A stretch of DNA of 64,000 bases, from positions 2,717,584 through 2,781,583 of the forward strand of contig NC_009142.1 of the NCBI RefSeq assembly GCF_000062885.1, written 5' to 3'. The translations under genes were made by a program, and so were the position numbers. The stretch is from Saccharopolyspora erythraea NRRL 2338 (GTDB taxonomy: Bacteria > Actinomycetota > Actinomycetes > Mycobacteriales > Pseudonocardiaceae). This document shows positions 2,998 through 10,740 of this stretch, piece after piece. The number at the start of each line of letters is the position of its first letter. Within the stretch, counting starts at the first letter, position 1. A model generated the notes under the pieces. That model saw only the letters and a list, made by a program, of their open reading frames with translations. It was not told where the DNA came from and made no database searches.

Positions 2998-3456
2998 TCA
3001 GGCGACCTCGACGATCATCTCCACTTCCACTGGTGCGCCGATCGGAAGCTCCGCGACGCCGACCGCCGAGCGAGCGTGCTGGCCGGCCTCACCGAAGATC
3101 TCGCCGATCAGCTCGGACGCTCCGTTGATCACCGGGGGCTGACCGTTGAAGCCCTCGGCGGAAGCCACGAAGCCGACGACCTTGACCACGCGGACCACCG
3201 AGTCCAGCCCCACCAGCGCGTCCACGGCGGCCAACGCATTGAGCACGCAGGTCCGCGCGTACTGCTTCGCATCCTCCGCGCTCACCTCGGCGCCGACCTT
3301 GCCGGTTGCCGGAAGCTGGCCGTCCACGACGGGCACCTGCCCGGAGACGTACACGTGCGAGCCGCTCCGCACGGCAGGCACGTACGCCGCGACCGGCGGC
3401 ACCACGTGGGGGAGCCGGACGCCGATCTCCGCCAGCCGATCCGTCCACTTGCCCAT
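2998..3456 (-). CDS. RidA/YjgF/YER057c/UK114-family protein
   Basis: Predicted 152-residue member of the RidA family. RidA proteins are small trimeric cytosolic proteins that typically hydrolyse reactive enamine/imine intermediates released by PLP-dependent enzymes. Family signs are VYVSGQVPVVDGQLP in the middle and VEVEMIVEVA at the C-terminus. Length fits the longer RidA subfamilies. The ATG at 3456 is preferred over the GTG at 3465 because GAAGGG lies 7 bases before the ATG. It follows the MalY-type aminotransferase gene by about 30 bases on the same strand. A PLP enzyme next to a RidA protein makes imine/enamine removal the likely role. The substrate is not known. Confidence 0.88.
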   Translation of the reverse strand: MGKWTDRLAEIGVRLPHVVPPVAAYVPAVRSGSHVYVSGQVPVVDGQLPATGKVGAEVSAEDAKQYARTCVLNALAAVDALVGLDSVVRVVKVVGFVASAEGFNGQPPVINGASELIGEIFGEAGQHARSAVGVAELPIGAPVEVEMIVEVA

Positions 3457-3486
3457 GTCAGTCACCCTTCGGTTGCTTCAACTCTT

Positions 3487-4656
3487 TCACAGTGCGCTGT
3501 CGAGTCGGTCCAGGATTTGTTCGAGGTTCGCGGTAGCGGTGGCGAAGTTGAGTCGTGCGTAGGTCGAGCTGGTCAGTTCGGTGTGTTGAGTGAATTCGGC
3601 ACCGGGGTTGAGGTATACGCGTGCGCGCCGGAGCAGCGCGGCCGCGGGGTCGGGTCCGAGGCCTGCGCGGGTGAAGTCGATCCAGGCGAGGTAGGTCGCC
3701 TCCGGGGGGAGGTAGCCGAGCTCAGGGTGGGCGCGGGCCCAGGCGGTGACGCGGTCACGGTTGCGGGTGAGCAGGTCGGTGGTGGCGTGGTGCCAGTCGT
3801 GGGATTCGCGCCAGGCGGCGACGGTGGCGATGCGACTGAGCACGCTGGGGGTGCCGAAGTAGTCCAGCGGGGCGCGGTCGAGAGCGTCGGCGGTGGGTGC
3901 GTAGCCGAGGTGAGCGACCGCGCACCGGGTGCCGGCGAGGTTGAACGCCTTCGTCGCCGACGTCGCGGTGATCGTCAGGTCCTCCACGGCCGGGTCGAGG
4001 CCGGCGAAGGGGATGTGCCGGTGTGGTAGGTAGGTGAGGTCGGCGTGGATCTCATCGGCCAGAACGGGGATGTGGTGGTCGGTCGCGATGTCTGCCAGCC
4101 CACGCAGCTCGGAGGCGCTGAACGTGTGCCCGGTCGGGTTGTGCGGGTTGACCAGCACGAACAGCCGAGGCCGTTCGGTGGCGAAGACGGCGTGGTGTCG
4201 GTCGAGGTCGAGTTCCCAGCCGCCGGGGGTGCGGTCGAGGGGTAGCGGCACGATCCGGCGTCGTGCGCGGTGGATCGCGGCGAGGAACGGTGGGTAGTTC
4301 GGCACGTGCAGGGCGACGGGGTCGCCGGGCTCGGTGGTGTGTTCGATGACGATCTGCAGGATCTGGATCAGGTCGCTGAACACGCGGGTGCGGCCCTCGC
4401 GGGGGTGCCATCCGTAGCGGGACCGCATGCGGTCGGTGAACGCGTCGACGACGGGGTCGCCGTCGGGCCAGTAGGGGTAGCCGAGGTCCTGACGTTCGAT
4501 GGTCTCGAGCATTCGGGCGCGGACGGGTTCGGGGATGCCGATGTCCATGTCGGCGACCCAAGCAGGTAGGACGTCGGCGTCGACGGCAGTCCACTTGGCT
4601 CCGTGGCCGGCTCGTAGCCGAGTCGGGTCGAGGTCAGCACGGGGTAGGGCACTCAT
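3487..4656 (-). CDS. MalY/PatB-type PLP-dependent aminotransferase or C-S lyase
   Basis: Predicted 389-residue fold-type I PLP enzyme. It has LPAWVADMDIGIPEPV near the N-terminus, which is typical of the MalY/PatB cystathionine beta-lyase group, then NPHNPTGHTFS, ADEIHADL and the Schiff-base lysine in SATKAFNLAG. It probably acts on sulfur-containing or other amino acids by beta-elimination or transamination in the cytosol. The ATG at 4656 overlaps the stop of the upstream DUF664 gene (ATGA), so the two are translationally coupled. The frame is open beyond 4656 up to 5142, but that part only shadows the DUF664 gene. The operon also holds a RidA protein. Exact substrate unknown. Confidence 0.88.
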   Translation of the reverse strand: MSALPRADLDPTRLRAGHGAKWTAVDADVLPAWVADMDIGIPEPVRARMLETIERQDLGYPYWPDGDPVVDAFTDRMRSRYGWHPREGRTRVFSDLIQILQIVIEHTTEPGDPVALHVPNYPPFLAAIHRARRRIVPLPLDRTPGGWELDLDRHHAVFATERPRLFVLVNPHNPTGHTFSASELRGLADIATDHHIPVLADEIHADLTYLPHRHIPFAGLDPAVEDLTITATSATKAFNLAGTRCAVAHLGYAPTADALDRAPLDYFGTPSVLSRIATVAAWRESHDWHHATTDLLTRNRDRVTAWARAHPELGYLPPEATYLAWIDFTRAGLGPDPAAALLRRARVYLNPGAEFTQHTELTSSTYARLNFATATANLEQILDRLDSAL

Positions 4657-5132
4657 GCGGTCTCCAGCGGTCGGACGGGCGCGGCGGCGAGGACGTCGCG
4701 CAGGGTCTCCATCTGCCCGTGGTGCTGGGCGAGTTCTTCGAACACGTGCTGCAGCGCGCCGCCCTGGGTGAGGCGGGTGGGCGGGCCGAGGAAGTCCGCG
4801 GGGGGCTCTTGGAGCAGGAACTGCTCGGGGTGCGCGTCGACGACGTCGGTGTGCATCTGGGCGCGCACGGTCGCGCAACGCTCGACGAGCAGCTCGACCG
4901 GGCCGGTGGCGGTGAACTCGGCGTCGCGGTCGCGGTCGATCGGACGGCCGCGGACGAACCCGCCGACCCAGGTCTCGATCACGCACAGGCAGTGGTGCAG
5001 CAGCGCGTACGGCGAGTTCGCGCCGGGGTAGGCGGCCCGGTTCGCCCGCTCGTCGCCGAGCTCGACCACGATCGCGGCCATCCCGTCGAGCGCGCGATCG
5101 GTGAAGTACAGGTAGTCCTCGCGGCTGAGCAT
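4653..5132 (-). CDS. DUF664/DinB-like protein
   Basis: Predicted 159-residue four-helix protein of the DinB/DUF664 superfamily. Family members in actinobacteria are often thiol-dependent (mycothiol) transferases or related metal-binding proteins. Helical segments carry the usual spaced histidines: YALLHHCLCVIETWVGGF in the middle and FEELAQHHGQMETLRD near the C-terminus, which would hold a metal ion. It is the first gene of a three-gene minus-strand operon with a MalY-type enzyme and a RidA protein, and it overlaps the next gene by 4 bases. A CGNR-regulator operator lies 12 bases upstream of its ATG. A thiol-linked detoxification role is an inference from family and context. Confidence 0.82.
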   Translation of the reverse strand: MLSREDYLYFTDRALDGMAAIVVELGDERANRAAYPGANSPYALLHHCLCVIETWVGGFVRGRPIDRDRDAEFTATGPVELLVERCATVRAQMHTDVVDAHPEQFLLQEPPADFLGPPTRLTQGGALQHVFEELAQHHGQMETLRDVLAAAPVRPLETA

Positions 5133-5143
5133 GCCACTCCAAT

Positions 5144-5166
5144 CGTCACCAGTTCAGACGGTGACG
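5144..5166. promoter_or_regulatory. operator copy 1 (CGTCACC-N9-GGTGACG)
   Basis: Perfect 7-bp inverted repeat with a 9-base spacer (AGTTCAGAC) in the divergent promoter region between the DUF664 operon and the CGNR regulator gene. The same 7-9-7 layout recurs at 5184, 5830 and 5876. Confidence 0.75.
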
Positions 5167-5183
5167 CAGTTTGCACGACTCAG

Positions 5184-5206
5184 TGTTACCGGTCAAGATG
5201 GTGACG
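5184..5206. promoter_or_regulatory. operator copy 2 (TGTTACC-N9-GGTGACG)
   Basis: Same 7-9-7 layout as copy 1 with spacer GGTCAAGAT and two changes in the left arm. It begins exactly 40 bases after copy 1 and its last base is the G of the proposed GTG start of the regulator, which suggests autorepression and a very short or absent leader. Confidence 0.7.
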
Positions 5207-5760
5207 TGAGATTCGCGTTCGTGAGCGGCAGTGCGGCACTGGATCTGGCGGGCACGCTGAAGTGGCGTCGGACCGAACCGGAAGAGCTGCTGGCAGGGCC
5301 GGCCGACCTGGAGCGCTGGCTCGACGCCTCCACCGACCTGCCCGGCGACGTCAGCGTCACCCAGGACGCGTTCCGGCAGGCCATCGGCCTGCGCGAAGCG
5401 GTCTACCAGCTCGCCACCGACCGGCTCGCCGAGCGCGGGTTCGACCGCCGAGCTCTCGACCTCGTCAACGGCCTCGCCCGAGACGCGGGCCTGACTGTGC
5501 AGCTCAGCGACACCGGAACCCGTCGGACCGGCAACATCGACGCCGTCCTGGCCGAACTGGCCCGCGACGCCGTCACCGTCCTCGCCGACCGCGAGGCTCA
5601 CCTGAAGGAATGCGGCCGCCCCGCCTGCACTCGCATCTATCTCGATCGTTCCCGCGGAGCCCGCCGTACCTGGTGTGGCATGGACGAGTGCGGCAACCGC
5701 GTCAAGGCCGCCGCCTACCGGGCGCGCAAGCGCCGCACCGACGCTGCGGCCGCCTCCTGA
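5206..5760 (+). CDS. ABATE/CGNR zinc-finger transcriptional regulator
   Basis: Predicted 184-residue DNA-binding regulator. The N-terminal part (FVSGSAALDLAGTLKWR) is the ABATE ligand-sensing domain. The C-terminus has the CGNR zinc finger, with CGRPACTRIYLD, then TWCGMDECGNRVKAAAYR, so the four cysteines and the CGNR signature are all present. The GTG at 5206 is chosen because the upstream in-frame codons overlap two operator palindromes and homology starts right after it. It is divergent from the DUF664/MalY/RidA operon and followed by an MFS transporter gene. Four copies of one palindrome occupy the two promoter regions, so it is probably the shared local regulator. The ligand is unknown. 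Confidence 0.85.
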   Translation: MRFAFVSGSAALDLAGTLKWRRTEPEELLAGPADLERWLDASTDLPGDVSVTQDAFRQAIGLREAVYQLATDRLAERGFDRRALDLVNGLARDAGLTVQLSDTGTRRTGNIDAVLAELARDAVTVLADREAHLKECGRPACTRIYLDRSRGARRTWCGMDECGNRVKAAAYRARKRRTDAAAAS

Positions 5761-5829
5761 GTCGTCTCACGACCAACGCCGGCCCCTCTTGACGTCGTCC
5801 ACGTGGCGGGGTCCTTACACGGCTGAAAC

Positions 5830-5852
5830 CGTCACCGCCTTGACAAGTGACG
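5830..5852. promoter_or_regulatory. operator copy 3 (CGTCACC-N9-AGTGACG)
   Basis: Same 7-9-7 inverted repeat as the copies before the regulator, one mismatch in the right arm, spacer GCCTTGACA. It lies upstream of the MFS transporter gene. Confidence 0.7.
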
Positions 5853-5875
5853 CGTCTCGGTCTGACTATTCGGTG

Positions 5876-5898
5876 CGTCACCGCTCAGACTGGTGACG
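5876..5898. promoter_or_regulatory. operator copy 4 (CGTCACC-N9-GGTGACG)
   Basis: Perfect 7-9-7 inverted repeat with spacer GCTCAGACT, 46 bases after copy 3 and 27 bases before the proposed TTG start of the MFS transporter. Its spacer resembles that of copy 1. Confidence 0.75.
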
Positions 5899-5924
5899 TT
5901 CATCGATCCGAAGGGCAGCCCGCC

Positions 5925-7307
5925 TTGGACTCCTCATCCCTGCAGACCCCACCCAGCGGCCGCATCAGCACCGGTGAAGTCGCCGCCCGGCTCGAACGAC
6001 TGCCCTGGACCAGCTACCAGCGCAGCCTGTTCCTGATCATCGCCACCGCGTGGCTGTTCGACTCGATCGACCTCGGCGCCCTGACGCACCTGCTCGCCCC
6101 GATCAGCGCCGAGTTCGGGCTGACCAAGCTGCAGGCCGGCCTCGTGGGCAGCGCCACCTTCGCCGGCATGTTCATCGGCGCCGTCGGCGCCGGCGTCCTG
6201 GCCGACCGGTTCGGCCGACTCAAGGTATTCAAGTACAGCATCATCATCTGGGGCTCGGCCAGCGTGTTGCTCGCGCTGTCCTGGGACTTCGCCAGCCTCG
6301 CCTCGTTCCGACTGCTGCTGGGCATCGGCATGGGCGCGGAATTCCCCGTCGCCGCCGCCCTGCTGTCCGAGTTCATGCCGTCGTCCAGGCGCGGCCGCTA
6401 CGTCGCGCTGATGGAGGGCACCTGGCCCACCGGATTCATCCTCGCCGGCATCGGATCGTTCGTGCTGCTGTCAACGACCCTGGGTTGGCGCGGCTTCTTC
6501 CTCGCCCAGGCCCTGCTCGCCGTCGTCGCGCTCATCGTGCGCCGCAACCTGCCCGAATCTCCCCGCTGGCAGGTCTCCCGTGGCCGCCACGCAGACGCTA
6601 TCGCCACCCTCGAGCACGTCGAACGCAAGACCGAAGCCGCTTTCGGTCGTCCCCTGCTCGCCCCCGGACCGATCGACGACCGCGACACGACAGGGCAGCA
6701 GGCAGGGCTGCGGGCGCTGTTCACCGACGGCTACCGCAAGCGGACCCTGGCCAGCTGGACGATGTGGTTCTGCCTGCTCGGCGGCTACTACGGCCTCACC
6801 ACCTGGATCGGCAAGCTCCTCAGCGACGCCGGCTACGACATGGTCGAGTCCGTCGGCTACATCGTCCTCATGGCCCTGTGGGGCATCCCCGGGTTCCTTG
6901 CCGCCGCCTGGCTCATCGAACGGATCGGGCGCAAGTTCTGCCTGGTCGGCTTCTCCCTGTCCTCGGCAGCAGCAGCGTTCGTCTACGGCAACGCCTCCGG
7001 CGTCACCGAGCTGATCATCTCCGGGTCGGTCCTGCAGTTCATCTTCTTCGGGATGTTCTCCTCGATCTTCGCCTACACCCCGGAGCTGTTCCCCACCCGT
7101 GCCCGCGCCATCGGAATGGGCAGCTCCACCGCCGCCGGGCGCCTCGGATCCATCTTCGGACCCGTCGTCGTGCCTCTGGTCATCGCCGCCCAGGGCCCCA
7201 GCGTTGTGTTCGCCGCCAGCGCCGTGCTCTTCGTGACCGGATCGGTCGTGGCCATCCTGTTCCTCCCCGAAACCCGCCAAACCGTCCTGGAAGACATCTC
7301 CAGCTGA
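5925..7307 (+). CDS. MFS transporter of the organic-acid/aromatic-acid type
   Basis: Predicted 460-residue, 12-helix major facilitator. It opens with a cytosolic segment and ERLPWTSYQRSLFLI, has the loop motif GVLADRFGRLKV between helices 2 and 3, NLPESPRWQVSRGR before the central loop, and the helix 8-9 loop LIERIGRKF. These features resemble the AAHS and NiaP-like carriers for carboxylates and aromatic acids. The frame is open from 5847, but that start would place operator copy 4 inside the gene. The TTG at 5925, with GAAGGG about 11 bases upstream, is preferred. It belongs to the CGNR regulon and probably imports or exports the compound handled by the MalY/RidA/DUF664 operon. Substrate unknown. 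Confidence 0.85.
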   Translation: MDSSSLQTPPSGRISTGEVAARLERLPWTSYQRSLFLIIATAWLFDSIDLGALTHLLAPISAEFGLTKLQAGLVGSATFAGMFIGAVGAGVLADRFGRLKVFKYSIIIWGSASVLLALSWDFASLASFRLLLGIGMGAEFPVAAALLSEFMPSSRRGRYVALMEGTWPTGFILAGIGSFVLLSTTLGWRGFFLAQALLAVVALIVRRNLPESPRWQVSRGRHADAIATLEHVERKTEAAFGRPLLAPGPIDDRDTTGQQAGLRALFTDGYRKRTLASWTMWFCLLGGYYGLTTWIGKLLSDAGYDMVESVGYIVLMALWGIPGFLAAAWLIERIGRKFCLVGFSLSSAAAAFVYGNASGVTELIISGSVLQFIFFGMFSSIFAYTPELFPTRARAIGMGSSTAAGRLGSIFGPVVVPLVIAAQGPSVVFAASAVLFVTGSVVAILFLPETRQTVLEDISS

Positions 7308-7368: not shown

Positions 7369-7879
7369 GTCGAGTGTTGATCGCGGTCCACGGATCAGGT
7401 GGTCAAGAACGCCGAACGCCCTGAGCTATGGGCCTGCCTGGACTACCTCCGCGAAGGCGACGCCCTCGTCGTCCTGGAGCTCTTCCGCCTCGGCCGCAGC
7501 CTCGCCGACCCGCACTCCATCGTCAGCGGACAACGCAGGCGCGGCATCGGGTTCACCTCGCTACACGAGAACCTCGACACCACTACACCCGGCGGCCGCC
7601 TGGCCTTCCACGTCCTCGCAGCCCTCGCTGCGGTCGACGGCACCCGCGAGGGCCTGGCTGCCGCCCGCGGCCGGCGTCCGGCTCGGCCGGCCACCGGCCA
7701 TGACCCCCGAGCAGGTCCGCCCCGCCCGCGAGCTGCTCGCCGAGCCGGACAACACCGTGGCATCCATCGCGCCCCTGCTCAGCGTCAGCCGCTCCACGAT
7801 CTACAAGTACGTCACAGAACTCAGCCCCAGCCGCACGATCGACCCCGAATCTGACCAGCGACCGGCGCTTCCGAGCTAA
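7369..7879 (+). pseudogene. serine recombinase (resolvase/invertase) relic
   Basis: The first reading frame encodes the middle of a resolvase catalytic domain (WACLDYLREGDALVVLELFRLGRS, then a GIGFTSLHE-type motif and LAFHVLAALAAVD). The C-terminal helix-turn-helix (VASIAPLLSVSRSTIYKYV) lies in another frame, so there is at least one frameshift near 7660-7690. The N-terminus with the catalytic serine is missing. It is a dead remnant of a mobile element. Confidence 0.75.
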
Positions 7880-9819: not shown

Positions 9820-10740
9820 CCTCTATCCCTGTTCACAGCCACTCGTTGATGGCCGCTACGAGGACGGTCGCCTCGTAGCGGACCGCGAGCTTGTCATACC
9901 TTGTGCCCACAGCTCGGTGCCGTTTGAGACGATTGATGCCGCACTCAACCCCGTGCCGAGCCTTGTGGTCCTCCGGGTCGAACTTCGGCGGACGGGCGCC
10001 GCGTGAGCTGAGTTTCTTGCGGTTACGGGCGTGGTCGGCCTTGTCCGGGATGGTGCAGCGGATGCCCCGACTGCGCAGGTAGGCGCGGTTCTTACGGGAG
10101 GCGTAGGCCTTGTCGGCACGCACCCGCCTGGGCCGGGTGCGTGGCCTGCCCGCCCCCAGTCGGGGCACCCTGATGCGACCCAGGACGAACTCGAACCGCG
10201 GGCAGTCGCCGCGCTGCCCGGCGGTGATCACGATGGACATGGGCTTCTGGCCCTGCTCGACGGCCAGGTGCAGCTTGGTGGTCAGGCCGCCGCGCGAGCG
10301 CCCAAGGTCGTGGTCGGCCGGCTCGGTGGCGACGCCGCCGGGCGGCTCTTCTGCACGTTCCCCCTTTTTCGTGTCCCGGCGGCATGCTGGTGGGCACGGA
10401 CGATGGTGGAGTCAACATTGATGTCCCAGGTGATCAGGTCCTTGGCGTCGGCCTGGGCCTGCAGGGCAGTGAAGATCCGCTGCCAGGTGCCGTTGCGCTG
10501 CCATCGGCGGAACAGGTCATACACCCGGCCCCAGGGCCCGTATTCCTGCGGCATGTCCCGCCAAGGGATGCCGGTACGGACCCGGAAGCGTATGCCGTCA
10601 ACCAGCTGCCTCTTGGTCCACATCGGCGGTCGGCCGGACTTCTTACGCCTCGGAAACAGGGGCTCGAGCACCGCCCACCGGGAGGAGCAGCGGAACTTGG
10701 ACGGCTCACGGCGCAGACCCGTACCGCAGCGTCCGGCTGT
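9820..10740 (-). mobile_element. IS5-family element (IS427-like group)
   Basis: A transposase read in two overlapping minus-strand frames occupies 9833-10671 or slightly beyond. Exact ends were not found: no clean terminal inverted repeat was recognised, so the boundaries are approximate. Confidence 0.6.
9833..10671 (-). CDS. IS5-family transposase made by -1 frameshift
   Basis: The N-terminal part (from [17 protein letters not shown] to [11 protein letters not shown], including the first catalytic Asp in [12 protein letters not shown]) is in one frame. The rest ([30 protein letters not shown] with the second Asp, [16 protein letters not shown] with the catalytic Glu) is in the -1 frame. On the coding strand the overlap holds an AAAAAGGGGG tract (genomic 10361-10370), a classic slippery run for programmed -1 frameshifting in this family. 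The true N-terminus lies upstream of 10671 (in-frame residues such as EPSKFRCSSRW continue there), but no start codon was identified. Confidence 0.72.

Follow-up and report, generated by a model that had tools for sequence, protein, structure and literature searches.

Paired palindromes as candidate operators of a CGNR zinc-finger regulator in Saccharopolyspora erythraea

Four copies of one palindrome, CGTCACC-N9-GGTGACG, lie around a gene encoding a CGNR zinc-finger protein in Saccharopolyspora erythraea NRRL 2338, and the arrangement raises the question of which protein uses them and with what effect on the neighbouring genes. We analyzed a stretch of 64,000 nucleotides containing this gene (NC_009142.1, positions 2,717,584 to 2,781,583), referred to as the window, in which all coordinates are given unless stated otherwise. 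Judged from the sequence comparisons described below, the four palindromes are probably (about 0.85) operators of the CGNR protein encoded between them, which would repress the enzyme genes, its own gene and the transporter gene until a ligand releases it.

The palindromes and the genes around them

The motif is found four times between positions 5144 and 5898, twice without mismatch, once with one mismatch and once with two. The candidate operators O1 (5144..5166, CGTCACC-AGTTCAGAC-GGTGACG) and O4 (5876..5898, CGTCACC-GCTCAGACT-GGTGACG) are exact in all 14 arm bases. The candidate O2 (5184..5206, TGTTACC-GGTCAAGAT-GGTGACG) carries two mismatches (CGTCACC to TGTTACC), and the GTG start codon of the regulator gene begins on its final base; the candidate O3 (5830..5852, CGTCACC-GCCTTGACA-AGTGACG) carries one (GGT to AGT). 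O1 and O2 separate the ABATE-CGNR gene from the divergent DinB-MalY-RidA genes, and O3 and O4 lie upstream of an MFS gene. The same four positions and the offsets of 40 and 46 bp within pairs had been given in an earlier, sequence-only reading of this DNA, and counting mismatches confirmed them; the label near-perfect used there is right for the copy at 5830 and generous for that at 5184.

Such a cluster is rare by chance. The window holds 21 sites with up to three mismatches, whereas 100 shuffles averaged 10.9 (sd 3.1), and four of the seven sites with up to two mismatches lie inside 755 bp. When the window was dinucleotide-shuffled 1000 times, two sites with up to two mismatches fell within 760 bp in 11 shuffles and three sites in none.

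Domain searches bore out the genes that had been named at the locus (RidA-type, PLP C-S-lyase-like, DinB, ABATE plus zf-CGNR and MFS). On the minus strand, the divergent operon begins with a gene for a DinB_2/mycothiol-S-transferase-like protein (4653..5132; PF12867, PF04978), followed by a PLP-dependent MalY/PatB-like C-S lyase (3487..4656; PF00155; TIGR04350 at 284 bits, below its cut-off of 340) and, likely as the last gene, a RidA/YjgF-type protein (2998..3465; PF01042). On the plus strand, O3 and O4 precede an MFS transporter of the aromatic-acid/H+ symporter-like kind (5924..7307; PF07690; TIGR00895 below its NCBI cut-off). Its likely start is the TTG at 5924, 25 nt past O4, and the first start codons of its counterparts at two homologous loci (L022 and L027) likewise lie 25 nt past the second site.

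A MalY-type lyase would break a C-S bond, or a comparable beta-bond, in an amino acid, and RidA would hydrolyse the resulting enamine or imine. Thiol transfer is a possible role for the DinB/MST protein, and the MFS protein may be an importer or an exporter. An amino-acid-like or sulfur compound is a plausible guess for the substrate. The haloacid dehalogenase (HAD) partner of CGNR genes at other loci points to small acids that are halogenated or electrophilic in some other way. A weak hint of a link to sulfur comes from Bordetella pertussis, in which raised expression of the CGNR gene bp3097 appears in a section of the report that concerns putative cysteine starvation (PMC9976334).

Other features of the window lie further from the palindromes. 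At 1892-2317, an apparently truncated gene encodes only the C-terminal part of an RbtT/DalT/CsbX-type MFS transporter (profile positions 276-400 of 401). A serine recombinase remnant (Resolvase N-terminal, profile 46-126 of 145) follows directly after the transporter gene at 7399-7854 and suggests the trace of a past mobile element beside the cluster. Two overlapping minus-strand frames at 9833-10671 resemble by eye what we take to be a split IS5-type transposase.

The regulator gene (5206..5760, plus strand) encodes a protein of 184 aa and its GTG start abuts O2. The protein combines an N-terminal ABATE domain (PF07336; E 9.2e-22, 78.5 bits against a cut-off of 24.4) with a C-terminal treble-clef finger carrying four cysteines and the CGNR motif (PF11706, zf-CGNR; E 1.6e-17). 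At E <= 0.001 these two domains were the only Pfam matches, with no helix-turn-helix domain of the TetR/GntR type. The four finger cysteines are invariant across 25 aligned regulator rows, of which 24 share the same start codon and one (L041) starts three residues further upstream. No relatives were found in phage records at E 1e-3. Proteins with a CGNR finger are common: among sampled genomes, 26 of 60 from the phylum and 36 of 41 from the order encode at least one.

An AlphaFold monomer model of the regulator has a mean pLDDT of 88, with values of 57-84 for ten-residue blocks within the finger. Foldseek comparison of the model with the PDB gave 3h0n as the sole match at E < 0.001 (E 8.4e-6, TM 0.56, 23% identity, 179 columns), and this was the only solved structure of a CGNR relative that we found. 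The protein, Jann_2411, shares with the window regulator PF07336 plus PF11706, the four-cysteine finger and a CGNR-type motif. It is reported as a dimer with a deep cavity at the dimer interface and conserved basic residues around the finger, and its authors propose that it binds DNA as well as a ligand and is thus a ligand-responsive transcription regulator (PMC2954205). The excerpts available from that paper give the structure and the proposal, and no operator was found in them. Jann_2411 differs in lineage and gene neighbourhood, and the window case adds a concrete, conserved candidate operator. Our search, confined to open-access literature, showed among the papers listed no operator or DNA-binding work on the CGNR-finger family. 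A conserved half-site at a known place makes it experimentally addressable whether and where a CGNR finger binds DNA.

Conservation with the regulator gene and distribution in the genome

To follow the palindromes outside the window we used 35 homologous CGNR loci from many genera of Actinomycetota. A palindrome pair with up to two mismatches in each site lies directly upstream of the CGNR gene at 31 of the 35 loci; of the four exceptions, three (L045, L047, L049) carry diverged sites, and the partial match L051 lacks them. A transporter like that of the window follows the CGNR gene at three loci (L018, L022, L027), each with a second palindrome pair ahead of it, and L019 has a single site as counterpart of O4. 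These counts support the proposal, made in the sequence-only reading, of one ABATE/CGNR regulator with operators at the enzyme operon, at its own gene and at the transporter gene. Orthologous loci without the palindrome had been named there as an observation that would speak against it, and the comparison came out in its favour.

The divergent enzymes are less constant. By tblastn, a divergent relative of the HAD gene that accompanies a paralogue of the regulator (see below; 51-86% identity) is present at 24/35 loci, DinB-MalY at 10/35 and neither at 1/35; the RidA of the window was found at none of the 35. As the pair is retained while the divergent enzymes change, the operator follows the regulator and not the enzymes.

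A rule restricted to the core of the palindrome (NNNACC-N9-GGTNNN, with at least two of three outer bases complementary) was applied to 51 near homologues. The dyad was present in 46/51; the coding stretches of the same homologues gave 3/51, and shuffles gave 1.3. It was present in 3 of 91 TetR/GntR control promoters (Fisher 7e-28, a nominal value, the homologues being related), a control set from which the short GntR loci L372, L375, L377 and L382 were dropped and L384-L388 were unused. The outer bases of the half-sites co-vary on both arms among homologues (GTCACC, GTAACC, GTTACC, GACACC), as expected of a dimer operator or symmetric protein-DNA site.

The spacing of paired sites in near homologues was 39-41 in 29 of the 38 counted and 32 to 54 in the others, under a loose pairing rule that gave no pair in 13 near homologues. 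Fixed helical phasing or a strict cooperative geometry of the pairs was considered and is unsupported with spacings of this range. In the O1 region of L041, just upstream of the CGNR start, a half-site block is partly duplicated (TTTCGTCACCGGTTCAG twice), which was absent from the other upstream stretches compared.

In the 8.21-Mb genome of the strain, the exact motif has four copies, all at two CGNR loci: the two in the window and a pair 40 bp apart at genome positions 4888684 and 4888724. This second pair is 2.17 Mb away, immediately ahead of a CGNR paralogue that shares 55% identity with the window regulator and is divergent to a haloacid dehalogenase type II gene (TIGR01428, above its cut-off). 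The palindromes had been taken to define a local regulon, a description that is too narrow given the exact operators at this paralogous regulator and dehalogenase. The two loci have the same operator, a nearly identical finger and a divergent enzyme gene, but the target is a HAD-type dehalogenase at one and DinB-MalY-RidA at the other. The two regulators are identical at 40/47 positions in their fingers, which with the exact operators at the paralogue locus makes cross-binding likely, and at only 59/129 in their ABATE parts, so their ligands may differ. The operators are probably common to both regulators, and an operator common to two paralogues in one genome offers an opening to test crosstalk.

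Use of the palindromes by a protein other than the CGNR protein has to be weighed here, since CGNR binding is itself a prediction and the MFS and enzyme promoters could answer to a general regulator. The sites nevertheless track the CGNR gene across genomes despite the exchange of HAD for DinB-MalY described above, and every exact copy in this genome stands at a CGNR locus. We regard the involvement of another protein as very improbable.

Weaker copies of the motif occur elsewhere in the genome. Among the 25 one-mismatch places listed, 23 are inside reading frames of 205-673 codons with a third-position GC of 0.71-0.99; the two intergenic ones lie upstream of a gene with a GC-rich spacer (L287) and just after a stop codon (L298). 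The latter copy (about 998-1020 of L298; G000 C1 6429967) has an AT-rich spacer and is perhaps an extra target, perhaps a chance match. Matches with up to two mismatches on one strand numbered 324 against 57 for a reversed control, and O2 belongs to this two-mismatch class. The clear regulon consists of the window locus and the paralogue locus, with minor extra targets possible.

At least one exact motif is present in 76 of 148 genomes of the class, and a close CGNR homologue (E <= 1e-20) in only 16 of 148. By itself the exact motif has little value as a marker: it is present in many high-GC genomes that have no close homologue, and the weight rests on clustering, intergenic position and conservation. 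A conserved operator of this kind would allow target genes to be predicted from sequence. At the eight other CGNR loci of the genome, an ACC...GGT dyad was found with gap 9 in L013, gap 17 in L016 and L017 and gap 19 in L014, and none was found in L012, L015, L134 and L135.

Position of the palindromes over putative promoters

A consensus sigma-70 scan of positions 5000-6000 gave zero promoters, so the promoters were placed from weak hexamers and conservation and are putative. On the plus strand, the regulator promoter (5171..5199) would consist of a -35 TTGCAC (5171-5176), a spacer of 17 bp and a -10 CAAGAT (5194-5199), with the +1 near 5206. The promoter of the enzyme operon would occupy 5168..5196 of the minus strand (-35 TTGACC, 17 bp, -10 CAAACT) and start within O1. 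For the transporter, a promoter at 5840..5869 of the plus strand would have the -35 TTGACA, a spacer of 17-18 bp and the -10 TGACTA or GACTAT. On these placements the operators would overlap the core promoters of the regulator, the enzymes and the transporter. O1 would lie over the start of the leftward enzyme transcript, and O2 would contain the regulator -10 together with the leftward -35, whose TTGACC is the complement of 5191-5196. O3 would contain the transporter -35 (5840-5845), and O4 would begin approximately at the transporter +1.

The last base of CAAGAT lies seven bases ahead of the GTG, and the position of this -10 is kept in homologues; if the hexamer is read as a -10, the regulator mRNA would be leaderless. 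In near homologues the second palindrome mostly terminates as GACGTG, in which GTG is the regulator start, and in most cases NGTCAAGAT or NGTCAAGGT forms its N9; homologues also repeat the O2 spacer GGTCAAGAT and the GTG that adjoins the site. An in-frame start codon begins at most 10 nt from GGT in 41 of the 46 near homologues with the dyad, and in 40 of the 46 there is in addition to a nearby start a hexamer (T/C/G)AnnnT ahead of GGT.

We propose that a dimer of the CGNR protein docks its two C-terminal treble-clef fingers onto the two GGTGAC half-sites of a palindrome. At O2, such a dimer would cover the -10 and the start point of the regulator gene itself, which is probably leaderless, together with the -35 of the DinB-MalY-RidA operon. 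At O1 it would mask the point where the divergent operon transcript begins, and at O3/O4 the transporter gene's -35 and start. All three transcription units would be repressed rather than activated, and a small molecule, probably a substrate or product of the enzymes, would be bound in the ABATE domain and release the repressor.

The CGNR protein could also bind these sites and activate, or dually regulate, the enzyme and transporter promoters while repressing only itself. In favour of this, O1 is next to the rightward promoter on its -35 side and a -35 falls within O3, and promoters that lack a good consensus also occur with activators. However, O2 lies over the putative -10 and the start codon, and O1 and O4 at or after putative start points, where a steric block is the simplest explanation; activation appears unlikely on these grounds. 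Still less credible, and in our estimate the least probable of the alternatives, is a function of the palindromes as RNA hairpins in attenuation or translation control. O1 and O4 would fall in 5' untranslated RNA and could make stems of 7 bp, but the left arm of O2 is upstream of the putative transcript start, the arm mismatches at 5184 and 5830 and in L024 and L027 are uncompensated, and the scan of 5000-6000 found no terminator-like site.

Repression by the CGNR protein would place the locus beside well-known regulators. The TetR, LacI and GntR types are autoregulated one-component repressors of divergent operons, and the window locus would resemble them in having palindromes over putative divergent promoters and the regulator gene beside its targets. 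Unlike them, the window regulator has as its putative DNA-binding part a C-terminal treble-clef zinc finger and not a helix-turn-helix, and its half-sites are N9 apart, the putative -10 falling between them and the start codon lying at the edge of the operator.

The dyad in distant CGNR relatives

The comparison was extended to order, class and phylum samples, which supplied 181 further CGNR promoters; L058 and L131, with no finger match, were left out. An ACC...GGT dyad had gap 9 in 19/181 promoters, gap 17 in 28 and gap 18 in 16, with about 3 each in shuffles; these dyads fall in 13, 22 and 12, respectively, of 96 clusters at 50% identity. The union of gaps 8, 9, 17, 18 and 19 was present in 72/181 CGNR promoters against 15/91 TetR/GntR promoters (p 6e-5), gaps 17-18 in 43/181 against 4/91 (p 2e-5) and gap 9 alone in 19/181 against 3/91 (p 0.03), p values that are optimistic as the gaps were chosen on the same CGNR sample. 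Gaps 8 and 19 taken singly showed no enrichment in the 181 over the 91 promoters, and among the first 51 control promoters alone 11 had a dyad of the gap union. The peaks were given by the ACC...GGT core only. Distant relatives, including Pseudomonadota and one member of the Bacillota, thus often have ACC-N8/9-GGT or ACC-N17-19-GGT, less consistently than near homologues, and the control with real promoters weakens the generalisation.

Outside Actinomycetota, a dyad with gap 8, 9, 18 or 19 was found in 11 of 19 plasmid-borne loci, about nine of them independent (two pairs are near copies); gap 19 was found in 6 of these loci against 0.12 in shuffles. Sphingomonas (L306) has two N9 sites 41 bp apart, the second of which ends at the annotated start ATG. 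In Alicyclobacillus (L318), two N19 sites are 49 bp apart, and the second has TGTCAA after ACC and TATAAT two bases ahead of GGT. Under the same rule no dyad was found in Agrobacterium, Neorhizobium, Deinococcus, Rhizobium etli, Pararhizobium, Ensifer, R. indigoferae and Rhizobium N741, the Pararhizobium locus (L322) being one core base short of it.

The two spacer classes, of 8-9 and 17-19 bp, differ by about one helical turn. We give even odds to the wider idea that CGNR fingers are a class of transcription factors with one grammar across Actinomycetota, Pseudomonadota and Bacillota. In this grammar, the -10 of an often leaderless regulator gene would adjoin the GGT of an ACC...GGT dyad with either spacer, a divergent -35 (TGTCAA on the regulator strand) would adjoin its ACC, the outer bases would be read by variable finger residues, and each protein would repress itself and its divergent neighbour.

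Several other candidates were tried and set aside. A search of 182 CGNR promoter regions for any palindrome with 7-bp arms and gaps 0-20 gave no gap-9 peak; so unrestricted a rule carries too much noise, and distant members diverge. The dyads GTCA-N16-TGAC and TGAC-N23-GTCA were rejected as operators, as they overlap the ribosome site and the conserved coding start in most rows shown. A recognition code, pairing the Arg of the finger D-R-S-R-G with the G after GGT, divided the clusters 9/0 against 3/15 (Fisher 5e-5) and was demoted to a lead: the Arg label needs only three changes on the tree, and L018 has His yet keeps GGTGAC.

Two plasmid settings were recorded in addition. On the Sphingobium baderi plasmid pDE2 (L307, 2453-5510), an N9 dyad is found close to the start of an alphaproteobacterial ABATE gene, near which a haloacid dehalogenase type II gene is annotated. 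A further gene setting of a similar regulator is seen on two Streptomyces plasmids (L311, L313), where CGNR genes with related GTCACC sites follow two ABC-F genes and have a hemerythrin-domain gene beside them.
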